A stretch of 37,349 bases of DNA from Prochloron didemni P4-Papua_New_Guinea (GTDB lineage Bacteria; Cyanobacteriota; Cyanobacteriia; Cyanobacteriales; Prochloraceae): the NCBI GenBank assembly GCA_000252485.1, contig JH611016.1:1-37349 (forward strand), in the 5' to 3' direction. Under the pieces are notes generated by a model. That model ran no database searches, had not been told where the DNA came from, and saw only the letters and a program-made list of their open reading frames with translations. Position 1 is the stretch's first letter; every line of letters starts with the position of its first letter. A program made the position numbers and the translations under genes. This document shows, in pieces, positions 13,006-33,612 of this stretch.

Positions 13006-14448
13006 CTAATTTTTAAGGCGATCGCGAAAATAACGTCGATATAAATCGCAACTGACAGTGACCCGATTTCCTTGGAGATTTACCAGTCCCATACTGTGTA
13101 ATTTAAACCCTTGCACTTGCTCTAACTCCACAGTCGCTGCTGCTTTTAAAACCCGTTGAAAAGCTGTGGCAAGGTCAGGATTTTGTTGTAAATTCCACAA
13201 GTGACGGTGTAAGTGGTCGCGATAAATTCCTGTATCTGTAGCTGCAGTGGAAACTAACTCCTTGAGGGGAATAGTTTGTCTTGCCAAATGGTGTAAAGAG
13301 AGGCGCACTAGATAAGGATGACCTGCTAGTAACTGCATTAACTGAGAAATAATTTCCTGCTCTTGAGGGAGTCCGTGACGCTGGGTTAAGTCTCTTAACT
13401 GTTCTGGAGTAAATGGTTTTAACTCAATTGCCAAACCTAGATTAAAAGGGGATTGATTAATATTTAAGGGAATGTAAATTTCTGTACATTGAACCAAGAG
13501 CAACCGCAGTTTTTGCCAGATTGGTTGATTTTTACCTTTTTCGTGCCAGGAACGGACCAAGGAAAAAAATTCTGGAGCTATTTTTAGATGCTTGAACAGT
13601 TGGTTGACTTCTTCTAAAGCTAAAACTATGGGGGAGGGTATTTGTTGCAGTAAATATGCTTCCAGGTAGAAAGTGCAACTCATTTTACTACCCAGATCTT
13701 GATCCCAATAATCGTTTAGTTTTGGTTCTAACTCCAGTTGACGAGTCAGATTGGCGCAAAACCAGCGCAACAATTTTTCTAAATCTGTCAGTACGCTTTC
13801 TTCTGCTTCCTGAAAATCTAAAAGTGCGGTTTTGTAGTTGCCCGTGCCAGCGCGAGCTAAAATTCTATTCATTAAGGAAGTTTTGCCCATCTGTCTAGGT
13901 GCTTTCAGTTGGATCAACGCCCCTGGTTTGAGGATTTCTTCGTAACATCTCTGTTCCTGAGGAACTCGCTCCACATAAAAAGTAGAATTTAAAGGAACGC
14001 TGCCATCAGGCAATTCTAGTTCTAGCAAATCTTCAGCACTAGGAGTTTGTGAAGTTGGGCCGGTTTGTTTTGGATCAGTTGGCAAGATAGAAGCCGATTG
14101 ATCTGGTTCTAACTTTTGCCTTACTTTCTCAGCAATGCGATCGATTGTCAGCTCCTTCATGAGAGAATTTTGGTCATGGCTAATTTGTCTTTCTAGTACT
14201 GAGTGAAGGTTAGCTTTAGAAACTTTTTCTCCTATTACCTCTGAAAGCAATCTCCATAGTTTAGGGGCAACTCCTTGTTTGATATAATTGGCAGAATAGC
14301 CATATTCTTCTGCTATCTGGTCATAGGTCTTTTTTGCCGCTTGCCAAGATTCTCGCAGGATTATTCTTTGAATATCATTTAAATGCTCTCCTGTTTGGCT
14401 ATAAACCAATTTTTCCGCAAATTCCAGAACTTCTTCTATAGCCCTCAT
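13006..14448 (-). CDS. vMAP-type HTH plus AAA-like NTPase
   Basis: A 480-residue, two-part protein. Residues 1-85 (VLEFAEKLVYSQTGEHLNDIQ, QIAEEYGYSANYIKQ) match the N-terminal helix-turn-helix found on cyanobacterial vWA-MoxR-associated and AAA-35 proteins. After a Pro/Thr linker comes an AAA-like NTPase with Walker A APRQMGKTS at 183-191, Walker B IVLALEEV at 274-281 and a C-terminal winged-helix-like region. Such proteins are often seen next to effectors in predicted signalling or conflict systems; here no WD40, CHAT or TIR effector is fused or adjacent. The partner and substrate are unknown. Confidence 0.82.
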   Translation of the reverse strand: MRAIEEVLEFAEKLVYSQTGEHLNDIQRIILRESWQAAKKTYDQIAEEYGYSANYIKQGVAPKLWRLLSEVIGEKVSKANLHSVLERQISHDQNSLMKELTIDRIAEKVRQKLEPDQSASILPTDPKQTGPTSQTPSAEDLLELELPDGSVPLNSTFYVERVPQEQRCYEEILKPGALIQLKAPRQMGKTSLMNRILARAGTGNYKTALLDFQEAEESVLTDLEKLLRWFCANLTRQLELEPKLNDYWDQDLGSKMSCTFYLEAYLLQQIPSPIVLALEEVNQLFKHLKIAPEFFSLVRSWHEKGKNQPIWQKLRLLLVQCTEIYIPLNINQSPFNLGLAIELKPFTPEQLRDLTQRHGLPQEQEIISQLMQLLAGHPYLVRLSLHHLARQTIPLKELVSTAATDTGIYRDHLHRHLWNLQQNPDLATAFQRVLKAAATVELEQVQGFKLHSMGLVNLQGNRVTVSCDLYRRYFRDRLKN

Positions 14449-17627: not shown

Positions 17628-18104
17628 ATGCTAAAAGACATATTGGATGAAATTGATACGTTACTAGCTAATAATTATAAACATGTGTTTGACTCATTGC
17701 AGATAGGAGCAACTGAGAGTGAACTTGAACTTTTAAGGATCAAGTGCTTTTCAGGTGAGCAAGTCCCACAGGATTTAGAAACCCTATACAAGTGGCATAA
17801 TGGTCAGACTGGATACTACTCTCTCAACCAAGAGGATAACCGAACCTTGTTGTCTATCAGTGAAGTTATCGAGGCATGGAAATTTATGAACGATCCTATG
17901 GAAGAGATCTTAGAGCCATGGTCTAAATCCTGGATACCAATCTTAGACAATGGTGCAGGTGATTATATTGTATATGAGAGTGAGGGAATCCAAACGGGCA
18001 AGCTTATTAGTTATTGGCATGATGATGAAGAGCGTTGGGTTGAATTTGAAAATCTAGAAAGCTGGGCTCAAGCTGTATTAAAATATACAAAAGATGTAAA
18101 TTAG
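17628..18104 (+). CDS. SMI1/KNR4 (SUKH) family protein
   Basis: The 158-residue protein has the SUKH superfamily pattern: a helical N-terminus, the core ESELELLRIKCF...VPQDLETLYKWHNG, then LLSISEVIEAWKFM and WIPILDNGAGDYIVYE, with a C-terminal FENLESWAQAVLKY helix. Bacterial members often are immunity proteins that neutralise polymorphic or contact-dependent nuclease toxins. No toxin gene is adjacent, so it may be an orphan immunity gene or a housekeeping member. A strong AGGAG lies 7 nt before the ATG. Confidence 0.85.
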   Translation: MLKDILDEIDTLLANNYKHVFDSLQIGATESELELLRIKCFSGEQVPQDLETLYKWHNGQTGYYSLNQEDNRTLLSISEVIEAWKFMNDPMEEILEPWSKSWIPILDNGAGDYIVYESEGIQTGKLISYWHDDEERWVEFENLESWAQAVLKYTKDVN

Positions 18105-18335: not shown

Positions 18336-18560
18336 CTACTCGATTTTCCATTCACTTTCTGGAATTTTGGCACTAAGCATAATGTTGCGTAGAGTGCCGA
18401 TGGGAATATTTCGTCCTTTGTGATAAGGAACAATAGCTTTCAGTTTTGATTCCAGATTGCGCCACTTACGATGACTTCCTTTCTGAGAAACTAACTCAAA
18501 TCCATATCGCAATAAAATACTTTCTACCTCATCAGCATTCATCCGTCTAATACGAGTCAT
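18336..18560 (-). CDS. hicA: HicA family mRNA interferase toxin
   Basis: A 74-residue toxin with the double-stranded-RNA-binding fold of HicA. The catalytic His is in the family motif GSHRKW, preceded by NADEVESILLRYGFELVSQK and followed by VPYHKGRNIPIGTLRNIM. HicA cleaves mRNA and is blocked by HicB. Its ATG overlaps the end of hicB by 4 nt, giving an antitoxin-first operon. Length is normal, so it may be active. Confidence 0.93.
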   Translation of the reverse strand: MTRIRRMNADEVESILLRYGFELVSQKGSHRKWRNLESKLKAIVPYHKGRNIPIGTLRNIMLSAKIPESEWKIE

Positions 18561-18760
18561 CCTATTGATACCTCTCGTACAACAGTGCCCGATTTTAATT
18601 CGATGGGATCTGGTTCTAAATAAAGAGCGATCGCCTCGCGAATATTTTCTAAGGCTTCTTCTTCAGTTTCCCCCGCTGAGGCGCAACCGGGTAATTCCGG
18701 ACACCAAACCGCCCAATCTCCCGTTTCTGAATCGATTTCAAGAATAACACGCCATTTCAT
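18557..18760 (-). CDS. hicB: HicB family antitoxin
   Basis: A 67-residue HicB antitoxin with the partial RNase-H-like fold: a Trp- and acid-rich strand pair (DWAVWCPELPGCASAGET) followed by EEEALENIREAIALYLE. It lacks the C-terminal DNA-binding domain that longer HicB proteins have, so autoregulation may differ. It precedes hicA and overlaps it by 4 nt. Immediately before its ATG, in the coding sense, lies a long AACAAAC array with no ribosome site. Confidence 0.9.
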   Translation of the reverse strand: MKWRVILEIDSETGDWAVWCPELPGCASAGETEEEALENIREAIALYLEPDPIELKSGTVVREVSIG

Positions 18761-18954: not shown

Positions 18955-19575
18955 TTACAACTGTAATTCTCTAATAGCAACTCCCGTACCTACCTCTGCA
19001 GCTCGCTGCAAAACGAAATCGCTTATCTGGAATAAATCAATCTTGGGAAAATAAAGGCTGAGGGAGCGTAACTCATACCCACCCTGTTGCAAACCGTAAA
19101 TTTTCAATTTCTTGTTCTTCAATAACCAAACTTCCGGTACTTGATAAGCAAGATAATCATTAATGTTAGTATAATTAGTAACATCAATTTCAATGGCTAA
19201 ATCCGGGGGTGGTTCAACTTTCCAATTAATCCGGTCTTTCCCTACTGCTGCCTGCCAATTATTGATATAAAAGCAATAATCTGGTTCAATTCCATGTTCT
19301 TGGGGCAACTCCATGGTTATAGGAGTAAATGCTTCGTAATTACGATTCTGTTTATCTAGCAGTACTTCAACTATTCTGGCTAACAAATGGGCTTCTCGTC
19401 CATGTCTGGGCATGGGACTCATAAGAAAAATCCCTCCATTGCAATATTTTATCCGGGGAATCGAACCATCCCCTCGACTTTCACAAAGTGCTTGATAATC
19501 TTCCCAAGTTCCCGGTATTTGTACCACGGTTCCCGGTGGTAGTTTGGTTTTTTCTTTCGAGATAACTGCGTACAT
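18955..19575 (-). CDS. Uma2 family (DUF820) endonuclease-like protein
   Basis: The 206-residue protein has the PD-(D/E)XK-like Uma2/DUF820 fold, expanded in cyanobacteria. Visible motifs are GTWEDYQALCE, MSPMPRHGREA, the acidic EPDYCFYI and DLAIEIDVTNY with catalytic Asp/Glu, and PEVWLLKN. Family members are predicted nucleases of uncertain role, many associated with mobile DNA. It stands alone between repeats. The ATG at 19575 has a weak purine stretch upstream. Confidence 0.9.
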   Translation of the reverse strand: MYAVISKEKTKLPPGTVVQIPGTWEDYQALCESRGDGSIPRIKYCNGGIFLMSPMPRHGREAHLLARIVEVLLDKQNRNYEAFTPITMELPQEHGIEPDYCFYINNWQAAVGKDRINWKVEPPPDLAIEIDVTNYTNINDYLAYQVPEVWLLKNKKLKIYGLQQGGYELRSLSLYFPKIDLFQISDFVLQRAAEVGTGVAIRELQL

Positions 19576-23404: not shown

Positions 23405-26029
23405 ATGTCCTTTGTTTGCTTGCACGTTCACAGCGATTACAGCCTCTTAGACGGAGCCTCCCAACTTCAACCCCTGGTCGATCGCGCCGTAGAGTTGGGC
23501 ATGTCCGCCATCGCCCTCACCGACCACGGTGTCATGTACGGGGCGATCGAGTTAATGAAGGTTTGCCGCAATAAGAATATCAAACCCATTATTGGCAATG
23601 AAATGTATGTCATTAATGGAGATATTGAAGTTAAAAAGTCTAGAATTAGGAAATATCATCAAGTTGTTTTAGCCAAAAATACTCAAGGCTATCAGCATTT
23701 AGTTAAACTCACTACTCTTTCTCATCTCAAAGGTATCCAAGGAAAAGGGATTTTCTCTCGTCCTTGTATTAATAAGGAATTACTGCAAGAATATCATGAA
23801 GGTTTAATTGTCACCAGTGCTTGTCTGGGAGGCGAAATTCCCCAACAAATTCTTGCTGGGAAAGTAGAATCAGCCAAGGAAACTGCTAGTTGGTATAAAG
23901 AAGTATTTGGAGAAGATTTTTATTTAGAAATTCAAGACCACGGTTCCCAGGAAGATAGAATAGTTAATGTAGAAATCGTCAATCTTGCTCGGGAATTAGA
24001 GATTAAAATTGTCGCTACCAACGACTCCCATTTTACCTCATGTTACGACGTAGAAGCCCACGACGCTCTTCTTTGCATTCAAACAGCAAAATTAGTTACT
24101 GACGAAAAACGTTTGCGTTACAGCGGAACGGAATATGTTAAATCCGAAGAAGAGATGAAACTGCTGTTTCGGGACCACTTGGAAGATGAAGTTATTGCAG
24201 AGGCGATCGCCAACACCCAAGAAGTTGCCGACAAAGTTCAACCCTATAAAATCATGGGAGAACCCCGCATTCCCGAATATCCTATTCCCCCAGGTCATAC
24301 TGCGGATACTTACCTGGAAGAACAAACTTGGTTGGGACTGAAAGAAAGATTTAATTGTAGTAAAAGAGAAAAAATAAAACCTGTCTATACAGATAGATTG
24401 CGCTACGAGCTAAAAATGCTCCAGCAAATGGGTTTCTCCACTTATTTTTTAGTAGTTTGGGACTACATTAAACACGCGCGAGATAATGGCATTCCCGTGG
24501 GTCCCGGTCGGGGTTCTGCTGCCGGTTCTCTGGTAGCTTATGCCCTGAGAATTACCAATATTGACCCAGTACATCACGGTCTTTTATTCGAGCGTTTTCT
24601 CAACCCAGAAAGGAAATCCATGCCAGATGTAGATACGGATTTCTGTATTGAAAGAAGGGACGAAATGTTGGCATATGTGACGGAAAAATATGGAGAAGAT
24701 AAAGTAGCCCAAATTATCACTTTCAACCGCATGACTTCCAAAGCAGTATTGAGAGATGTCGGTAGGGTTTTAAACGTTCCCCTCAGCCAAGTTAATACCA
24801 TGGCGAAAATGATTCCTGTCGCTAGGGGAAAACCCGCTAAATTAAAAGTAATGATTTCAGAGGAAACCCCGGAACCTACATTTAAAGAAAGATACGATAG
24901 CGATGATAAAGTTCGCCGTTGGCTGGATATGGCCATGCGCATTGAAGGAACTAATAAAACCTTCGGCGTTCACGCAGCGGGAGTAGTAATTTCTTCCCAA
25001 CCTTTAGATGAAATAGTTCCTCTCCAAAGAAATAACGATGGAGCAGTAATTACCCAGTATTACATGGAAGATTTAGAAGCTCTGGGACTGCTGAAAATGG
25101 ATTTTCTCGGTTTGCGAAACCTCACTACCATTCAAAAAACTGTCCAATTAATTGAACAATATCAAGGACACCAATTAGATTTAGAGCAATTACCCTTAGA
25201 CGATCTCAAAGCATGGCAAGTTTTAGCTAAAGGCAGGGTCAAAAAATTACCCCCTGATGTAACTGAAACTTATCACCTTTTGAAAGACGGAAATTTAGAA
25301 GGAGTTTTTCAATTAGAATCGGAGGGAATGCGTCAAATCGTCAGGGACTTAAAGCCTACGGGAATAGAAGATATTTCCTCTATTTTAGCCCTCTATAGAC
25401 CCGGTCCTTTAGATGCAGGTTTAATACCCAAATTTATTAATCGGAAACATGGAAAAGAAGCAATTCAATATCAACACAAATTATTAGAACCAATCCTAGA
25501 AGAAACCTACGGAGTACTTTGCTACCAAGAGCAAATTATGCGCATGGCTCAAGATTTAGCAGGTTATTCTTTAGGACAGGCTGACTTATTGCGGCGGTGC
25601 ATGGGTAAAAAGAAAGTGGCTGAAATGGAAAAGCATCGAGAAAGGTTTATCGATGGTTCAGCTAAAAATGGGGTTAAAACAGAAATCGCCCAAGAATTAT
25701 TCGAGGAAATGATTAAGTTTGCTGAATATTGCTTGAGCTACGATACGGAAGTTCTGACTGTTGAATATGGTCCTATGCCTATTGGTAAAATTGTGGAAGA
25801 AAGAATTGATTGTACTGTCTATAGTGTAGATAAAAATGGCTTTATCTATACTCAACCTATCGCTCAATGGCATAATCGAAATACCCAAGAAGTATTTGCT
25901 TATTCCTTGGAAGATGGTTCCATTATTCGCGCTACTAAAGACCACAAGTTTATGACTGTGGAGGGGGAAATGGTTACTATTGAGGATATATTTCAGCAAG
26001 GATTAGAGTTGAAAATAGTTGATAGTTGA
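23405..26029 (+). CDS. dnaE-N: DNA polymerase III alpha subunit, N-terminal half, fused to split intein
   Basis: This gene encodes the first part of the replicative polymerase. Residues 1-775 contain the PHP domain ([22 protein letters not shown]) and the polymerase core with [16 protein letters not shown] and the catalytic PDVDTDF. At residue 776 the polymerase is interrupted after KFAEY by an intein N-fragment (99 residues). The C-terminal half must be encoded elsewhere with the matching intein C-fragment; trans protein splicing then yields intact DnaE, as in many cyanobacteria. The last residues and stop fall in an ATAGTTG array. Confidence 0.97.
25730..26026 (+). other. Split DnaE intein, N-terminal fragment
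   Basis: The 99-residue segment starts with the catalytic Cys1 ([14 protein letters not shown], block A) and carries block [15 protein letters not shown] with Thr69 and His72. It is close to the Npu and Ssp DnaE inteins and, like them, has no homing endonuclease domain. The known intein-N fragments of this family are about 102-123 residues, so this one is near the short end and finishes in LKIVDS. Confidence 0.95.
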
Positions 26030-26376: not shown

Positions 26377-26523
26377 TATAGCGCTTCCCGCTGGTGTCTT
26401 TACATGATAAGTTGTAGTATATACTACAGCTGCTGTATCACCTTTGTATAAAGCCTGAAACCTAGTCATAGCCATCTTTATGAATTTTGAATTTTAAATT
26501 TTGAATTGTGCGTAGCGCTATAT
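26377..26523 (-). mobile_element. MITE copy M4, full-length, ending at a stop codon
   Basis: About 147 bp bounded by TATAGCGC and GTAGCGCTATA. It combines the GGTGTCTTTACATG / CACCTTTGTATAAAG half shared with M1-M3 and the CCTGAAACCTAGTCATAGCC half shared with M5 and M6, so it links both sets. It reaches the TGA of the repeat protein gene. The flanks fit a TA target. Confidence 0.75.
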
Positions 26524-28439
26524 CATTCCAAATCTCCCTGAACTACACCTGCACGTATTAATCCCCGTAAAAGTAGGTTTTGTGCATAGGTTCGAGTAAT
26601 CTTTCCTGGTTCTATTGTTCTAGTAGGATTATCTGAAGCACGATCCCGTGCAATCTCTCTATCTTCATTATATATTCCTTCCGGCCAAGGCACTTTTTGT
26701 ACAGGAGTGTTCTTTCCAGATTCATGCCCCAGTTTTTCCATTAATTGCGCTTCCAGTTTGCCTCTTGTATTGCTCATGACCCCTTGGGACTTACCGGTAA
26801 CAGCTGAATAAACAGCACGCAAAACAAGATTGCTGTCCGCTAAAGAAAGAACTTGAGCATTTTTGTAAATAAAATTAAATACAGGCCATAAGTCTGATGG
26901 GTCATTAGGGGCATCTGCCTCTTTACCCTTTTTCCCAAATGTTACCAAATTATCTTGATAAAAACTGATTATCAAATTGAAATGACCTATTAAAGTCTCT
27001 GGTCTTAGGTAGAAGAGGGGAGGCTGCTTAACTGCCATTGTTAGGTAATCTTCCAGAGATAATCCCTTATCTTTAAAATGCTCATAAACCCCTTCTATAT
27101 TACCTATCAAAGTCTCTGGTCTTTGGGTGAAGAGCCCAGGCTGCTTAAGGGCTGCTTTTAGGTAATCTTCCAGAGATAATCCCTTATCTTTAAAATGCTC
27201 ATAAACCCCTTTTATATTACCTATCACACTCTCTGGTCTTCGGCAGAAGAGCGAGGGCTGCTTAACTGCCACTTTTAGATAATCTTTCAGAGATAATCCC
27301 TTATCTTGAAAATGCTCGTAAACCCCTTCTATATTACCTATTAAAGTCTCTGGTTTTTGATAGAAGAGGGTAGGCTGCTTAACTGCGGCTTTTAGGTAAG
27401 CTTGCAGAGATAATCCCTTATGTTTAAAATGCTGATAAACCCTCTTTATATTACCTATCACAGTATCTGGTTTTTGATAGAAGAGCTGAGGCTGCTTAAC
27501 TGCTACTTTTAGGTAACCTTCCAGAGATAATCCTTTATCTTGAAAATGCTGATAAACCCCCTCTATATTACCTATCACACTCTCTGGTCTTCGGCAGAAG
27601 AGCGAGGGCTGCTTAACTGCCACTTTTAGATAATCTTTCAGAGATAATCCCTTATGTTTAAAATACTCATAAACCCCTTCTATATTACCTATCACAGTAT
27701 CTGGTTTTTGATAGAAGAGCGAGGGCTGCTTAACTGCTGCTTTTAGGTAATCTTTCAGAGATAATTCTTTATCTTGAAAATGCTCATAAACCCCTTCTAT
27801 ATTACCTATTAAAGTCTCTGGTCTTTGGTAGAAGAGCTGAGGCCGCTTAACTGCTGCTTTTAGGTAATCTTCCAGAGATAATCCCTTATTTTTAAAATGC
27901 TCATAAACCCCTTCTATATTACCTATTAAAGTCTCTGGTCTTTGGCTGAAGAGCGGAGGCTGCTTAACTGCTGCTTTTAGGTAGTCTTCCAGAAATAATC
28001 CCCTATGTTTAAAATGCTGATAAACCCCTTCTATATTACCTATTAAAGTCTCTGGTTTTTGATAGAAGATGGGAGGCTGCTTAACTGCTGCTTTTAGGTA
28101 ATTTTCCAGAGATAATCCCTTATATTGAAAATGCTGATAAACCCCTTCTATATTACCTATTAAAGTCTCTGGTCTTTGGTTGAAAAGCTGAGGCCGCTTA
28201 ACTGTTGCTTTTAGGTAATCTTCCAGAGATAATCCTTTATGTTGAAAATGCTCATAAACCCTTTCTATATTCTCTATTAAAGTCTCTGGTTTTTGGGTAA
28301 AGAGCGAGGGCCGCTTAACTGCTGCTTCCATCAGCATTTCCGCTGTGGGAACGGTTGTATTAAAATATCTTGTCAATTCTTCAGAATAGATCGTCGCAGA
28401 ATTCAAAAATTTTTCATTATAATCAACTTTTTTTTCCAT
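26523..28439 (-). CDS. Giant 39-residue helical repeat protein B (11 full repeats)
   Basis: The 638-residue product has a 41-residue N-cap (MEKKVDYNEKF...PTAEMLMEAAV), eleven full 39-residue repeats, a twelfth partial one, and a C-terminal cap; everything after the last full repeat is 168 residues. The repeat consensus is K-Q/R-P-x-L-F-x-x-R/K-P-E-T-L/V-IGN-IEGVYEHF, then a Gln/Lys-Asp/His pair, then KGLSLEDYLKAAV. The spacing of Leu35, Pro3 and Phe6 (positions 1, 8 and 11) is that of mTERF helical modules, so an alpha-solenoid is likely; binding of nucleic acid is a hypothesis. Differences cluster at positions 4, 7, 22, 25, 26 and 33. There is no signal peptide and no clear ribosome site. 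Confidence 0.85.
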   Translation of the reverse strand: MEKKVDYNEKFLNSATIYSEELTRYFNTTVPTAEMLMEAAVKRPSLFTQKPETLIENIERVYEHFQHKGLSLEDYLKATVKRPQLFNQRPETLIGNIEGVYQHFQYKGLSLENYLKAAVKQPPIFYQKPETLIGNIEGVYQHFKHRGLFLEDYLKAAVKQPPLFSQRPETLIGNIEGVYEHFKNKGLSLEDYLKAAVKRPQLFYQRPETLIGNIEGVYEHFQDKELSLKDYLKAAVKQPSLFYQKPDTVIGNIEGVYEYFKHKGLSLKDYLKVAVKQPSLFCRRPESVIGNIEGVYQHFQDKGLSLEGYLKVAVKQPQLFYQKPDTVIGNIKRVYQHFKHKGLSLQAYLKAAVKQPTLFYQKPETLIGNIEGVYEHFQDKGLSLKDYLKVAVKQPSLFCRRPESVIGNIKGVYEHFKDKGLSLEDYLKAALKQPGLFTQRPETLIGNIEGVYEHFKDKGLSLEDYLTMAVKQPPLFYLRPETLIGHFNLIISFYQDNLVTFGKKGKEADAPNDPSDLWPVFNFIYKNAQVLSLADSNLVLRAVYSAVTGKSQGVMSNTRGKLEAQLMEKLGHESGKNTPVQKVPWPEGIYNEDREIARDRASDNPTRTIEPGKITRTYAQNLLLRGLIRAGVVQGDLE

Positions 28440-28614
28440 TAATTGAGGTATTTGTTATTTACTAGAATAGGTTTATTGTTTTTCTTCGCTGCTGGGGGTA
28501 ACCCCGGCAGATGACTTATTTATTCTAAAGCAGAAACCGAAATCTAGATCTAGAGTTTGTAATATTTCTTTACATTAAATGAAATGAATTTTTGAGTTTA
28601 TTGGTCAAGCGATA
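28440..28614 (-). promoter_or_regulatory. Leader/promoter region of repeat gene B
   Basis: About 175 bp nearly identical (a handful of differences) to 31074-31248. It contains a hairpin, TGCTGGGG (28490-28497) with CCCCGGCA (28502-28509) and loop GTAA, and the 12-bp palindrome TCTAGATCTAGA (28543-28554), a possible operator. Its outer end (28600-28614 onward) still encodes the higA C-terminus (RIS..SLDQ-stop). Nothing else is seen up to 28688. Confidence 0.65.
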
Positions 28615-28688
28615 TCTTTGAGATCCGCGAAGAGTGCGCGAAGAGTCGCGGGTTTATAAATTTCAGAAGCTTGCCTCTGAGTCTTTTA

Positions 28689-31073
28689 TCATTCCAAATC
28701 TCCCTGGACTACACCTGCACGTATTAATCCCCGTAAAAGTAAATTTTGTGCATAGGTTCGAGTAATCTTTCCTGGTTCTATTTTTCTAGTAGGATTATCT
28801 GAAGCACGATCCTGTGCAATCTCTCTATCTTCATTATATATTCCTTCGGGCCAAGGCACTTTTTGTACAGGAGTGTTCTTTCCAGATTCATGCCCCAGTT
28901 TTTCCATTAATTGCGCTTCCAATTTGCCTCTTGTATTGCTCATGACCCCTTGGGACTTACCAGTAACAGCTGAAAAAACAGCACGCAAAACAAGATTGCT
29001 GTCAGCTAAAGAAAGAACTTTAGCATTTTTGTAAATAAAGTTAAATACAGGCCATAAGTCTGATGGGTCATTAGGGACATCTGCCTCTTTACCCTTTTTC
29101 CCAAATGTTACCAAATTATCTTGATAAAAACCGATTATCAAATTGAGATGACCTATTAAAGTCTCTGGTCTTAGGTAGAAGAGGGGAGGCTGCTTAACTG
29201 CTGCTTTTAGGTAACCTTCCAGAGATAATCCCTTATTTCTAAAATGCTCATAAACCCCTTCTATATTAGCTATTAAAGTCTCTGGTCTTTGGCAGAAGAG
29301 CGAGGGGTGCTTAACTGTGGCTTTTAGGTAATCTTTCAGAGATAATCCCTTATTTCTAAAATGCTCATAAACCCCTTCTATATTACCTATCACAGTCTCT
29401 GGTCTTTGGCGGAAGAGCGAGGGGTGCTTAACTGTGGCTTTTAGGTAATCTTTCAGAGATAATCCCTTATTTCTAAAATGCTCATAAACCCCTTCTATAT
29501 TACCTATTAAAGTCTCTGGTCTTTGGGTGAAGAGGGGAGGCTGCTTAACTGCCAATTTTAGGTAATCTTTCAGAGATAATCCCTTATTTCTAAAATGGTC
29601 ATAAACCCCTTCTATATTACCTATCAAAGTCTCTGGTCTTTGATAGAAGAGCTGAGGGTGCTTAACTGCCACTTTTAGATAATCTTCCAGAGATAACCCC
29701 TTATTTTTAAAATGCTCGTAAACCCCTTCTATATTACCTATCAAAGTCTCTGGTCTTTGGGTAAAGAGCTGAGGCTGCTTAACTGCTGCTTTTAGGTAAT
29801 CTTCCAGAGATAATGCCTTATCTTGAAAATGCTCATAAACCCTCTCTATATTACCTATTAAAGTCTCTGGTCTTTGATAGAAGAGCTGAGGCTGCTTAAC
29901 TGCCAGTTTTAAGTAATCTTCCAGAGATAATGCCTTATCTTGAAAATGCTCATAAACCCTCTCTATATTACCTATTAAAGTCTCTGGTCTTTGGGTGAAG
30001 AGCGAGGGCTGCTTAACTGCTGCTTTTAGGTAATCTTTCAGAGATAATCCCTTATCTTGAAAATGGTCATAAACCCCTTCTATATTACCTATTAAAGTCT
30101 CTGGTCTTTGGCAGAAGAGCTGAGGCTGCTTAACTGTCACTTTTAGATAACCTTCCAGAGATAATCCCTTATCTTGAAAATGCTCATAAACCCTCTCTAT
30201 ATTACCTATCACAGTCTCTGGTCTTTGGCTGAAGAGCGAGGGCTGCCTAACTGCCACTTTTAGGTAATCTTCCAGAGATAATCCCCTATGTTTAAAATGC
30301 TGATAAACCCCTTCTATATTAGCTATCACAGTCTCTGGTCTTAGGCAGAAGAGCGGAGGCTGCTTAACTGCTGCTTTTAGGTAACCTTCCAGAGATAATC
30401 CTTTATCTTGAAAATGCTCATAAACCCCTTCTATATTACCTATCACAGTCTCTGGTCTTTGGGTGAAGAGCGAGGGCTGCTTAACTGCTGCTTTTAGGTA
30501 ACCTTCCAGAGATAATCCCTTATCTTGAAAATGGTCATAAACCCCTTCTATATTACCTATCAAAGTCTCTGGTCTTTGGGTGAAGAGCGAGGGCTGCTTA
30601 ACTGCTGCTTTTAGGTAATCTTCCAGAGATAATCCCTTATCTTGAAAATGGTCATAAACCCCTTCTATATTACCTATTATAGTCTCTGGTCTTTGGCAGA
30701 AGAGGGCAGGCTGCTTAACTGCTGCTTTTAGATAATCTTTCAGAGATAATCCCTTATTTTTAAAATACTCATAAACCCCCTCTATATTACCTATTAAAGT
30801 CTCTGGTCTTTGATAGAAGAGCTGAGGCTGCTTAACTGCTGCTTTTAGGTAACCTTCCAGAGATAATCCCTTATCTTGAAAATGGTCATAAACCCCTTCT
30901 ATATTACCTATCACAGTCTCTGGTTTTTGGGTAAAGAGCGAGGGCCGCTTAACTGCTGCTTCCATCAGCATTTCCGCTGTGGGAACGGTTGTATTAAAAT
31001 ATCTTGTCAATTCTTCAGAATAGCTCGTAGCAGAATTCAAAAAGTTTCCATTATAATCAACTTTTTTGTCCAT
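28689..31073 (-). CDS. Giant 39-residue helical repeat protein A (15 full repeats)
   Basis: A 794-residue paralog of protein B with the same 41-residue N-cap, fifteen full 39-residue repeats, a sixteenth partial and the same 168-residue C-cap. The size difference from B, 156 residues, is exactly four repeats. The caps are nearly identical at DNA level, while the repeat arrays differ in order and content, so the array evolves by unequal exchange. The C-cap (DLWPVFNFIYKNA, VLRAVFSAVTGKSQGVM, then PVQKVPWPEGIYNEDREIA and a basic end TYAQNLLLRGLIRAG) matches no family I know. I infer a modular ligand-binding solenoid, possibly mTERF-like. Confidence 0.85.
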   Translation of the reverse strand: MDKKVDYNGNFLNSATSYSEELTRYFNTTVPTAEMLMEAAVKRPSLFTQKPETVIGNIEGVYDHFQDKGLSLEGYLKAAVKQPQLFYQRPETLIGNIEGVYEYFKNKGLSLKDYLKAAVKQPALFCQRPETIIGNIEGVYDHFQDKGLSLEDYLKAAVKQPSLFTQRPETLIGNIEGVYDHFQDKGLSLEGYLKAAVKQPSLFTQRPETVIGNIEGVYEHFQDKGLSLEGYLKAAVKQPPLFCLRPETVIANIEGVYQHFKHRGLSLEDYLKVAVRQPSLFSQRPETVIGNIERVYEHFQDKGLSLEGYLKVTVKQPQLFCQRPETLIGNIEGVYDHFQDKGLSLKDYLKAAVKQPSLFTQRPETLIGNIERVYEHFQDKALSLEDYLKLAVKQPQLFYQRPETLIGNIERVYEHFQDKALSLEDYLKAAVKQPQLFTQRPETLIGNIEGVYEHFKNKGLSLEDYLKVAVKHPQLFYQRPETLIGNIEGVYDHFRNKGLSLKDYLKLAVKQPPLFTQRPETLIGNIEGVYEHFRNKGLSLKDYLKATVKHPSLFRQRPETVIGNIEGVYEHFRNKGLSLKDYLKATVKHPSLFCQRPETLIANIEGVYEHFRNKGLSLEGYLKAAVKQPPLFYLRPETLIGHLNLIIGFYQDNLVTFGKKGKEADVPNDPSDLWPVFNFIYKNAKVLSLADSNLVLRAVFSAVTGKSQGVMSNTRGKLEAQLMEKLGHESGKNTPVQKVPWPEGIYNEDREIAQDRASDNPTRKIEPGKITRTYAQNLLLRGLIRAGVVQGDLE

Positions 31074-31248
31074 TGATTGAGGTATTTGTTATTTACTAGA
31101 ATAGGTTTATTGTTTTTCTTCGCTGCTGGGAGTAACCCCGGCAGATGACTTATTTATTCTAAAGCAGAAACCGAAATCTAGATCTAGAGTTTGTAATATT
31201 TCTTTACATTAAATGAAATGAATTGTTGAGTTTATTGGTCAAGCGATC
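31074..31248 (-). promoter_or_regulatory. Leader/promoter region of repeat gene A
   Basis: The counterpart of 28440-28614, with TCTAGATCTAGA at 31177-31188 and the same hairpin position, here with a GGGA instead of GGGG arm. It overlaps the 3' end of higA, which lies upstream on the same strand, so higA and gene A may be partly cotranscribed. Confidence 0.65.
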
Positions 31249-31555
31249 TCGAAGAGATCCGCTTTGCGGTGCGCCTTCGCTCTGCCAACCTTTCCTCACT
31301 ATTTATTTGTCTTGCTATTTTCAAATTATATCGTTGTTGTAAATTGAGCCAAAATTCAGCAGAGTTACCAAAACATCGAGATAATCTTAAAGCTAGTTCC
31401 GAGTTAATAGGTTGATTTCCATTTAGAATTGCATCAATATGAGATAGAGGAAGATTTAGAGCCTCAGCAAGTTTAATATTTGTGAGGTTCAAGGGTTCCA
31501 TAAACTCGTAACGTAGGATTTCACTTGGGGTGATAGGAGATAGTTTTTCTGCCAT
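31232..31555 (-). CDS. higA: HigA family antitoxin (XRE type)
   Basis: A 107-residue HigA/VapI-type antitoxin. The helix-turn-helix reads NLTNIKLAEALNLPLSHIDA and the family segment INSELALRLSRCFGNSAEFW follows. It begins with the characteristic TPSEILRYEFMEPL. In a HigBA pair the toxin HigB is encoded just upstream; here only a C-terminal HigB fragment exists (31569-31697), so this antitoxin seems orphaned. The C-terminal codons lie in the sequence duplicated in front of gene B. Confidence 0.9.
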   Translation of the reverse strand: MAEKLSPITPSEILRYEFMEPLNLTNIKLAEALNLPLSHIDAILNGNQPINSELALRLSRCFGNSAEFWLNLQQRYNLKIARQINSEERLAERRRTAKRISSRSLDQ

Positions 31556-32510: not shown

Positions 32511-32614
32511 ATGAAGCCGATAGACTATGAAACTGACTTTTACGCCTGGACGCAACAACAAGTTCAACTCATCAAAACAAAACAATTTCATCAACCCCCT
32601 CGCTAGTCTCAACA
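32511..32614 (+). pseudogene. DUF29 gene, N-terminal fragment
   Basis: From ATG 32511 the frame reads MKPIDYETDFYAWTQQQVQL and continues IKTKQFHQ, the conserved DUF29 start. It is then joined to CCCCTCGCTAGTCTCA (32596-32611), a piece of the DUF29 C-terminal coding region, in the wrong frame, and a stop follows at 32604. The matching C-terminal half is at 34820-35011. Confidence 0.7.
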
Positions 32615-32622
32615 TCAAAAAA

Positions 32623-32774
32623 CCAACACTTCGGCTCCGCTCAGTGCAGGCAACAAATAACCAACACTTCGGCTCCGCTCAGTGCAGGCAACAAATAACC
32701 AACACTTCGGCTCCGCTCAGTGCAGGCAACAAACAACCAACACTTCGGCTCCGCTCAGTGCAGGCAACAAACAA
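32623..32774 (+). repeat. Four tandem 38-bp repeats
   Basis: Units start at 32623, 32661, 32699 and 32737, each CCAACACTTCGGCTCCGCTC plus 18 bases. Since 38 is not a multiple of three, the frame rotates with each copy, yet all frames stay open, so a reading frame passes through them into the methyltransferase. Confidence 0.9.
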
Positions 32775-32784
32775 CCAACAACAA

Positions 32785-33612
32785 ATGAAAAATATCTATA
32801 GTAAAGATATAGAAGAGAAAAAAATCTGGTATTCTTCCGTAGCCCATGCCTACCATAAGACCAGACCTGGCTATTCCAAGAAATTAATCCAGCGCATTTT
32901 ATCATTAGCTCAACTGCCGCAAAATGCAAAAGTATTAGAAATAGGTTGTGGACCGGGAACTGCCACCACAACCTTTGCTAGTTTTGGTTTATCCATGGTT
33001 TGTCTGGAACCCTGTTTAGAATCTTGCCAACTGGCGAGGGAGAACTGCCAGCCATATCCCAATGTAGAAATTATCAATACTACTTTTGAAGAATGGCCGT
33101 TAGAAAAAAATAAATTTGCTGCTGTTATTGCCGCTACTTCTTTTCATTGGGTTTCCCCAGAAACCGTTTATAAAAAAGCAGCACAAGCTTTGCAAGAAAA
33201 TGGTTCTCTTATTTTACTTTGGAATACTCCCCCTCAACCTAATTTTCAAGTTTGCCAAAGCTTGAATCAACTATATCAAACCTACGCTCCTTCTGTCACG
33301 CCTCATCAAGATATCCCTACTCACCAAGAAAACTTGAGCAAGTTGAAGCAAAAAGTAATTGACTCCGGTTACTTCCATGAGTTAGTTTTGGAACAGTCCA
33401 TCTGTTCTGCCACCTATAGCATTGATGATTATCTGACTTTCCTAACTACCTTGTCCCCCTACATAATGCTAGAACAACATCAGCGAGATGCTTTGTTAGC
33501 AGCTATTGGGGAAACTTTAGAGGAGAACTGCGGCAACACCATGGAAACCTCCTATCTTTCAGTGTTTCAGATAATGGGGAAGAGGCAAGAGGCAAGAGAC
33601 AAGAAGGGGTAA
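32785..33612 (+). CDS. Class I SAM-dependent methyltransferase
   Basis: The 275-residue protein has the Rossmann-type methyltransferase fold. Motif I is VLEIGCGPGTAT, the acidic motif II is VCLEPCLES, and the post-motifs are FAAVIAATSFHWVSPE and GSLILLWNT, which fit the UbiE/Methyltransf_11 type. The acceptor substrate is unknown. An open frame extends upstream to 32527, but those 86 codons are DUF29 relic and 38-bp repeats, so I start at ATG 32785, directly after AACAACCAACAACAA. It lies inside the segment bracketed by DUF29 fragments. Confidence 0.88.
   Translation: MKNIYSKDIEEKKIWYSSVAHAYHKTRPGYSKKLIQRILSLAQLPQNAKVLEIGCGPGTATTTFASFGLSMVCLEPCLESCQLARENCQPYPNVEIINTTFEEWPLEKNKFAAVIAATSFHWVSPETVYKKAAQALQENGSLILLWNTPPQPNFQVCQSLNQLYQTYAPSVTPHQDIPTHQENLSKLKQKVIDSGYFHELVLEQSICSATYSIDDYLTFLTTLSPYIMLEQHQRDALLAAIGETLEENCGNTMETSYLSVFQIMGKRQEARDKKG

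Follow-up and report, generated by a model that had tools for sequence, protein, structure and literature searches.

What do two adjacent and almost perfectly repetitive genes do in a cyanobacterium, and what might their products bind? The genes lie in a contig of Prochloron didemni P4-Papua_New_Guinea, and the window, by which we mean the whole stretch of DNA analysed, is 37,349 nucleotides long. Each gene encodes an N-cap, an array of 39-residue repeats and a C-terminal region (Table 1). In the register used here, KQPxLFxQRPETLIGNIEGVYEHFQDKGLSLEDYLKAAV (39 columns), the array starts at residue 42 in both proteins, all spacings are exactly 39 residues, there are no indels and the C-terminal region opens with a partial extra copy of 28 residues. 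A sequence-only reading had described 11 and 15 full repeats, near-identical caps and a size difference of exactly four repeats, and every one of these statements holds, the two proteins differing by 156 residues or 4.0 repeats. It had also called the proteins giant, a term that masses of 73 kDa for A and 90 kDa for B do not merit. The fraction of residues matching at a lag of 39 is 0.54 in A and 0.64 in B, against a mean of ~0.06 (0.063) and a maximum of 0.10 for shuffled sequence. Repeats resemble each other equally within each protein and between A and B. As the 187-nt leaders are duplicated too, gene and leader were duplicated together in tandem. A third copy is split between two contigs: its N-cap lies at the end of C514, running off it, and contig C421 begins with its C-cap (83% identical). 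The genome is a draft of 690 contigs that breaks inside this third array, and assembly may have affected the exact repeat numbers. The proposal that a bacterium uses a modular, expandable array is supported as regards modular expansion.

Table 1. Features of the tandem gene pair, in positions of the window
Feature	Position	Strand	Description
Gene A	26523..28439	-	638-aa mTERF-like repeat protein: N-cap, 11 full 39-aa repeats, C-terminal region
Gene A N-cap	28317..28439	-	Residues 1-41; end resembles second half of a repeat
Gene A repeat array	27030..28316	-	Residues 42-470, 11 x 39 aa; hypervariable columns 4, 7
Gene A C-terminal 168 residues	26526..27029	-	Partial repeat, then C-terminal domain
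Region upstream of A	28442..28628	-	187 nt, 96.8% identical to region upstream of B
Gene B	28689..31073	-	794-aa mTERF-like repeat protein: N-cap, 15 full 39-aa repeats, C-terminal region
Gene B N-cap	30951..31073	-	Residues 1-41; 37/41 identical to A N-cap
Gene B repeat array	29196..30950	-	Residues 42-626, 15 x 39 aa; hypervariable columns 7, 4
Gene B C-terminal 168 residues	28692..29195	-	161/168 identical to A
Region upstream of B	31076..31262	-	Copy of the region upstream of A; far end overlaps 3' end of HTH_3 gene

Which fold do the repeats adopt? An AlphaFold2 model of the gene A protein, built with 13 relatives, is an alpha-solenoid in which each repeat forms three helices of ~18, ~10 and ~4 residues; pLDDT is ~95 over most of the array, with overall values of 81 for pLDDT and 0.64 for pTM. 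When the model was compared with the PDB by Foldseek, all eight matches at E<=1e-3 were human MTERF1 (best 3.8e-6), with a Tetrahymena mitoribosome chain, MTERF3 and MTERF4 ranking next. VIA-align gave a Z of 18.1 over 316 residues for MTERF1 and of 15.4 for MTERF3. Model, Foldseek matches and VIA alignments all fit an MTERF1-like superhelix of stacked three-helix modules. Profile searches against PDB sequences also place MTERF1 and MTERF3 first, weakly, with marginal E-values for MTERF1 (0.04; 0.12). The Pfam mTERF family (PF02536) scores 35 and 48 bits on A and B. Five column-permuted repeat decoys exceeded the cut-offs of random Pfam families by up to 20 bits, none of them matching mTERF; since periodic decoys pass the cut-offs of other families similarly, the Pfam match of A and B is not safe evidence. 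Matches of the two proteins to DUF4003, PrgI, PRK families and others in Pfam and NCBIfam were discarded as repeat-inflated, because the decoys produce spurious matches alike. A divergent relative, L019, gives a clean mTERF match (77 bits, 1.2e-21, profile positions 6-262). The mTERF motif, as defined in Hu et al. (PMC11417379), has Pro at position 8 and Leu or a hydrophobic residue at positions 1, 11, 18 and 25. Positions 1, 8, 11, 18 and 25 are all kept, as columns 35 (L in 26/28 copies), 3 (P, 28/28), 6 (F, 28/28), 13 (L/V/I, 28/28) and 20 (V/I, 28/28). The Leu/Pro/Phe spacing of 1, 8 and 11 from which the mTERF affinity had been read is thus right, with Leu at column 35, Pro at column 3 and Phe at column 6. 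Two outcomes that would have refuted that affinity did not arise: the model is not something other than an alpha-solenoid, and the confident structural relatives are solely mTERF proteins (MTERF1, MTERF3, MTERF4 and mitoribosomal relatives) rather than an unrelated family. Fold model, structural matches and motif positions together support the reading of A and B as predicted prokaryotic mTERF-like alpha-solenoids, for which nucleic-acid binding is inferred.

Where do the near-identical modules differ? Over the 26 full repeats, column 4 holds S, Q, P, T, G or A and column 7 holds Y, T, C, S, N or R. These columns switch whole codons, as with TCG, CAG and CCC at column 4, and at least two nucleotides differ at them in ~60% of repeat pairs; the neighbouring columns are constant, and columns 10 and 14 use a single codon in every copy. 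Columns 4 and 7 have a pN of 0.52, the other columns, without 2 and 8, one of 0.084, and pS is 0.157 overall, although concerted evolution within one genome can distort pN/pS. The pattern is not confined to the window. Across eight homogenised prokaryotic arrays from several lineages, columns 2, 7 and 4 lead all 39 by mean entropy rank (permutation p of 0.0008, 0.0036 and 0.019, respectively). The array of an Aenigmatarchaeota-labelled MAG (L039), whose repeats are 90% identical, varies only at columns 1, 2, 4, 7, 8, 26 and 39 and shows the same pattern independently. Columns 7, 4 and 2 still come top in a wider set of 19 proteins of greater divergence, where surface column 19 ties with column 2 and column 15 is close behind. 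Might all this reflect unselected expansion, in which a horizontally acquired array drifts, columns 4 and 7 are under relaxed constraint and gene conversion holds the others? The equal similarity of repeats within and between A and B would agree with it, as would the existence of three copies, one of them broken by gaps in the assembly, and the presence of the family in only one of the 391 genomes sampled in the order (Cyanobacteriales), namely this one. We nevertheless regard drift as improbable: relaxed constraint does not explain multi-nucleotide codon swaps concentrated at two of 39 codons, the reading frames are all open and free of indels, the caps have been kept, constraint acts on most columns (pN/pS of 0.58 once columns 2, 4, 7 and 8 are set aside) and the same hypervariable columns recur in other lineages.

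What could the variable residues contact? When MTERF1 is aligned to the repeat profile with HMMER, R162 falls on column 1, and R202, F243 and R350, from three different modules, all fall on column 4. Residue numbers of MTERF1 were obtained by adding 72 to the chain index, as the 324-residue chains span 73-396, and were checked against chains 5crk (F243A) and 5cky (R162A), both of which have Ala at the expected place. F243 stacks on everted bases. Direct readout by MTERF1 is assigned to R162, R202, R251, R350 and R387, and its conserved prolines line the major groove (PMC4705650); the conserved proline of the window repeats is column 3. Net charge per repeat is +2.1 to +2.5 in columns 1-9, the remaining columns being negative, and the pI values are 9.0 and 8.5. 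Because variable column 4 aligns with MTERF1 base readers and columns 1-9 are basic, the variable residues sit at the place where MTERF1 reads DNA. The base reader R251 aligns with column 12, a nearly invariant Thr in the window repeats, and this counts against a DNA-reading view. Many alpha-solenoids bind proteins, and A and B might do likewise, or hold another repetitive polymer, their variable residues then being a protein-interaction surface under diversifying selection. MTERF4 does bind NSUN4, in a complex among the structural matches listed, and divergent arrays vary at further surface columns besides 2, 4 and 7, but a basic strip beside the conserved proline, the correspondence with MTERF1 base contacts, the sigma-type domains fused to the array in relatives and the DNA binding shown for prokaryotic relatives (PMC11417379) make such a role hard to credit.

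Double-stranded DNA remains the most probable ligand, by inference, and the relatives bear on the use to which it may be put. Elsewhere in the phylum, the true relatives belong to a single family with genomes of 1.7-2.2 Mb, identified from named records as Candidatus Gastranaerophilales; they occur there in 20 of 146 genomes, spread over 11 of 41 genera. Eight array proteins of the Gastranaerophilales type (L010, L009, L013, L017, L018, L021, L024 and L045) have a sigma-70-type domain within their N-terminal ~250 residues. In PDB profile searches the N-terminal region of many Gastranaerophilales members leads to SigA (3.4e-7), and Pfam Sigma70_r4 is present in 5 of 8 members. In an AlphaFold2 model of L010, residues 58-252 superpose on sigma factors with a Z of about 8 (16-22% identity among the better matches) and residues 261-623 on MTERF1 with a Z of 16. 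The sigma Z values are middling and rmsd is large, probably owing to inter-domain movement; the sequence evidence is independent of them. The Gastranaerophilales relatives qualify as carrying a domain like sigma regions 3-4, whereas A and B lack a sigma domain. Fusion of a sigma-70-type domain to the array in relatives points to transcription. A ruminant-gut MAG holds two adjoining sigma/mTERF-like paralogues (L045:6466-9789), a tandem pair like that of the window.

Some plant mTERFs have been linked to RNA metabolism, and we asked ourselves whether the arrays bind RNA instead of DNA, for example to help group II intron splicing or to stabilise transcripts. A group II intron domain (Rfam RF00029) does lie at the start of the contig (window 48-122, +), and the splicing of group II introns involves a plant mTERF (PMC4005652). 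We still consider RNA an unlikely target, since the variable column coincides with the DNA base readers of MTERF1, the sigma-70 fusions in relatives point to promoters, the prokaryotic relatives tested so far bind dsDNA (PMC11417379) and there is no conclusive evidence of direct RNA binding behind mTERF RNA phenotypes (PMC13126933).

How might the genes have reached this cyanobacterium? Further relatives occur in two Alphaproteobacteria MAGs (L044 and L048), a third genome of the alphaproteobacterial class (L087, from the search of that class), a Planctomycetota-labelled MAG (L040) and the Aenigmatarchaeota-labelled MAG, the contig of which carries archaeal-type genes. L040 shares the C-terminal domain of A and B at 47% identity, L044 and L048 more weakly. 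This distribution points to horizontal spread. Phage, plasmid and viral-contig collections yielded no relatives, and the best E in a viral fold library was only 0.04, mostly for tape-measure-like proteins; a phage, plasmid or viral origin was rejected on these grounds. Neighbouring genes differ in every lineage examined, none being conserved, and the neighbourhoods supply no functional clue. In the single complete congeneric genome dnaE and the methyltransferase gene lie ~115 kb apart, so that no clean empty site could be read. Apparent relatives from other cyanobacteria with 22-30% identity (L006-L008) were excluded, as they read as TPR-CHAT or TPR proteins. In the Planctomycetota-labelled MAG the mTERF-like gene (L040:716-7069) adjoins a serine recombinase and a RepA-like replication initiator, both recognised by eye, and the contig is perhaps a plasmid. 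The repeats of L087:7006-8787 (-) are very close to those of the window (IIANIEGVYNHFKDKGLKLEDYLKAAV) and are preceded by a long N-terminus; XRE-type HTHs suspected by eye in that N-terminus matched nothing in Pfam and PDB searches and were dropped.

Based on these observations, we propose that A and B are most likely modular dsDNA-binding proteins in which repeat-variable residues set specificity, and that they were acquired horizontally and expanded in situ; binding, code and target are inferred. The proposal rests on computed features: the fold, the modularity, the way in which variation concentrates in few columns and coincides with MTERF1 base-contact positions, the basic strip and the sigma-70 fusions of relatives. 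For A and B themselves, DNA binding and a code are inferences with good support, and targets and a regulatory role are inferred as well. The solenoids would bind double-stranded DNA along the major groove, module after module, with the conserved proline and the short helix that follows it facing the DNA. Base preference would be set by the variable residues around the proline, those of columns 2, 4 and 7 together with 1 and 8, and the order of modules would spell the target. As A and B differ in the number (11 versus 15) and order of their modules, they should read different sites, and their most likely role, by inference, is that of transcription regulators or roadblocks. Horizontal transfer probably brought the family to the cyanobacterium, after which whole genes and modules would have been duplicated in tandem. 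Besides the invariance of column 12, the similar variation of surface columns 19 and 15 to that of columns 2 and 4 in divergent arrays argues against DNA reading, as do the absence of a sigma domain from A and B and the uninformative neighbourhoods. More tentatively, it is possible that prokaryotic mTERF-like arrays follow a base-reading code independent of that of TALEs, residing mainly in columns 2, 4 and 7, and that the sigma-70 fusions of Gastranaerophilales are modular promoter-specificity factors.

How does this compare with known systems? The sequence-only reading knew of no described function, and here it was overtaken by Hu et al. 2024 (NAR, PMC11417379), whose DNA-binding screen of tandem repeat proteins showed specific binding by what they named prokaryotic mTERF-like proteins, or 'pTERF'. 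In that article, pTERF1, from a ruminant-gut Clostridia MAG, binds the motif ACTNNNAGTC with a Kd of 1.87 nM, pTERF2 binds a different specific DNA motif, and reprogrammability is suggested. Like pTERFs, A and B are bacterial and consist of tandem, directly adjacent three-helix mTERF-like units. The main text describes 3-11 units, mostly from Bacillota MAGs, whereas B has 15, and canonical mTERF Pro/Leu features, reported there as absent in pTERF1, are kept in A and B. It mentions neither cyanobacteria, Gastranaerophilales nor sigma, and its pTERF section names no specificity-determining residues or columns. An earlier TALE-inspired screen does not mention mTERF (PMC5472282). Prokaryotic mTERF-like DNA-binding repeat proteins are therefore already known, and A and B are a variant, not a new fold; what is new are larger canonical-motif arrays in a cyanobacterium, hypervariable columns matching MTERF1 base readers and the sigma fusions.

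With human MTERF1 and MTERF3 (PF02536), A and B have in common the three-helix module, the conserved proline, the superhelix and the position of base-contacting residues. The human proteins are eukaryotic and organelle-targeted, with eight degenerate 33-residue modules and ~15% identity, in contrast to the 11 and 15 nearly identical 39-residue modules of the bacterial proteins. An organellar mTERF in the strict sense, nucleus-encoded in a eukaryote and imported into its mitochondria or plastids, was excluded, as A and B lie on the contig of a bacterium, which also carries a split-intein dnaE-type gene. TAL effectors, BurrH and other TALE-like proteins are a functional analogy, as DNA-reading solenoids with long homogenised arrays and few variable columns. 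Relationship to TALEs was rejected on structure (Z at most 7.2 versus 18 for MTERF1), and TALE-like membership on architecture: the TALE repeat has 33-35 residues, two helices and a variable di-residue 12/13 in the inter-helix loop, that of A and B 39 residues, three helices and variable columns 2, 4 and 7 around a conserved proline. PPR and OPR organellar solenoids are also modular helical repeats with variable base-contact positions, but their units are two-helix, of 35 or 38 residues, and RNA-binding, and they are absent among the structural matches listed.

What are the implications? If the variable columns are a code, they would constitute another natural modular DNA-reading system besides TALEs and zinc fingers and would provide a concrete residue set for the recently reported pTERF family. 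The sigma fusions predict array-directed transcription initiation. A 2021 review still described mTERFs as eukaryotic modular proteins (PMC7909791); the origin of organellar mTERFs is touched by the close modular forms in a cyanobacterium, Alphaproteobacteria, Gastranaerophilales and Planctomycetota- and Aenigmatarchaeota-labelled MAGs.

The contig has other features of note. An AAA_35 protein (window 13006-14448, -) has a weak sigma-70 region-4-like N-terminus (19 bits, below the cut-off). A HicA/HicB toxin-antitoxin pair (18336-18760, -) adjoins a Uma2 gene (18955-19575) and lies near an SMI1/KNR4 gene (17628-18104). An N-terminal fragment of DNA polymerase III alpha (23405-26029, +) ends, judged by eye, like the N-half of a cyanobacterial DnaE split intein. 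The 5' part of a methyltransferase ORF (32527-32800, +) consists of short repeated DNA (LRLRSVQATNNQ...), which makes it probable that the true start is further in.
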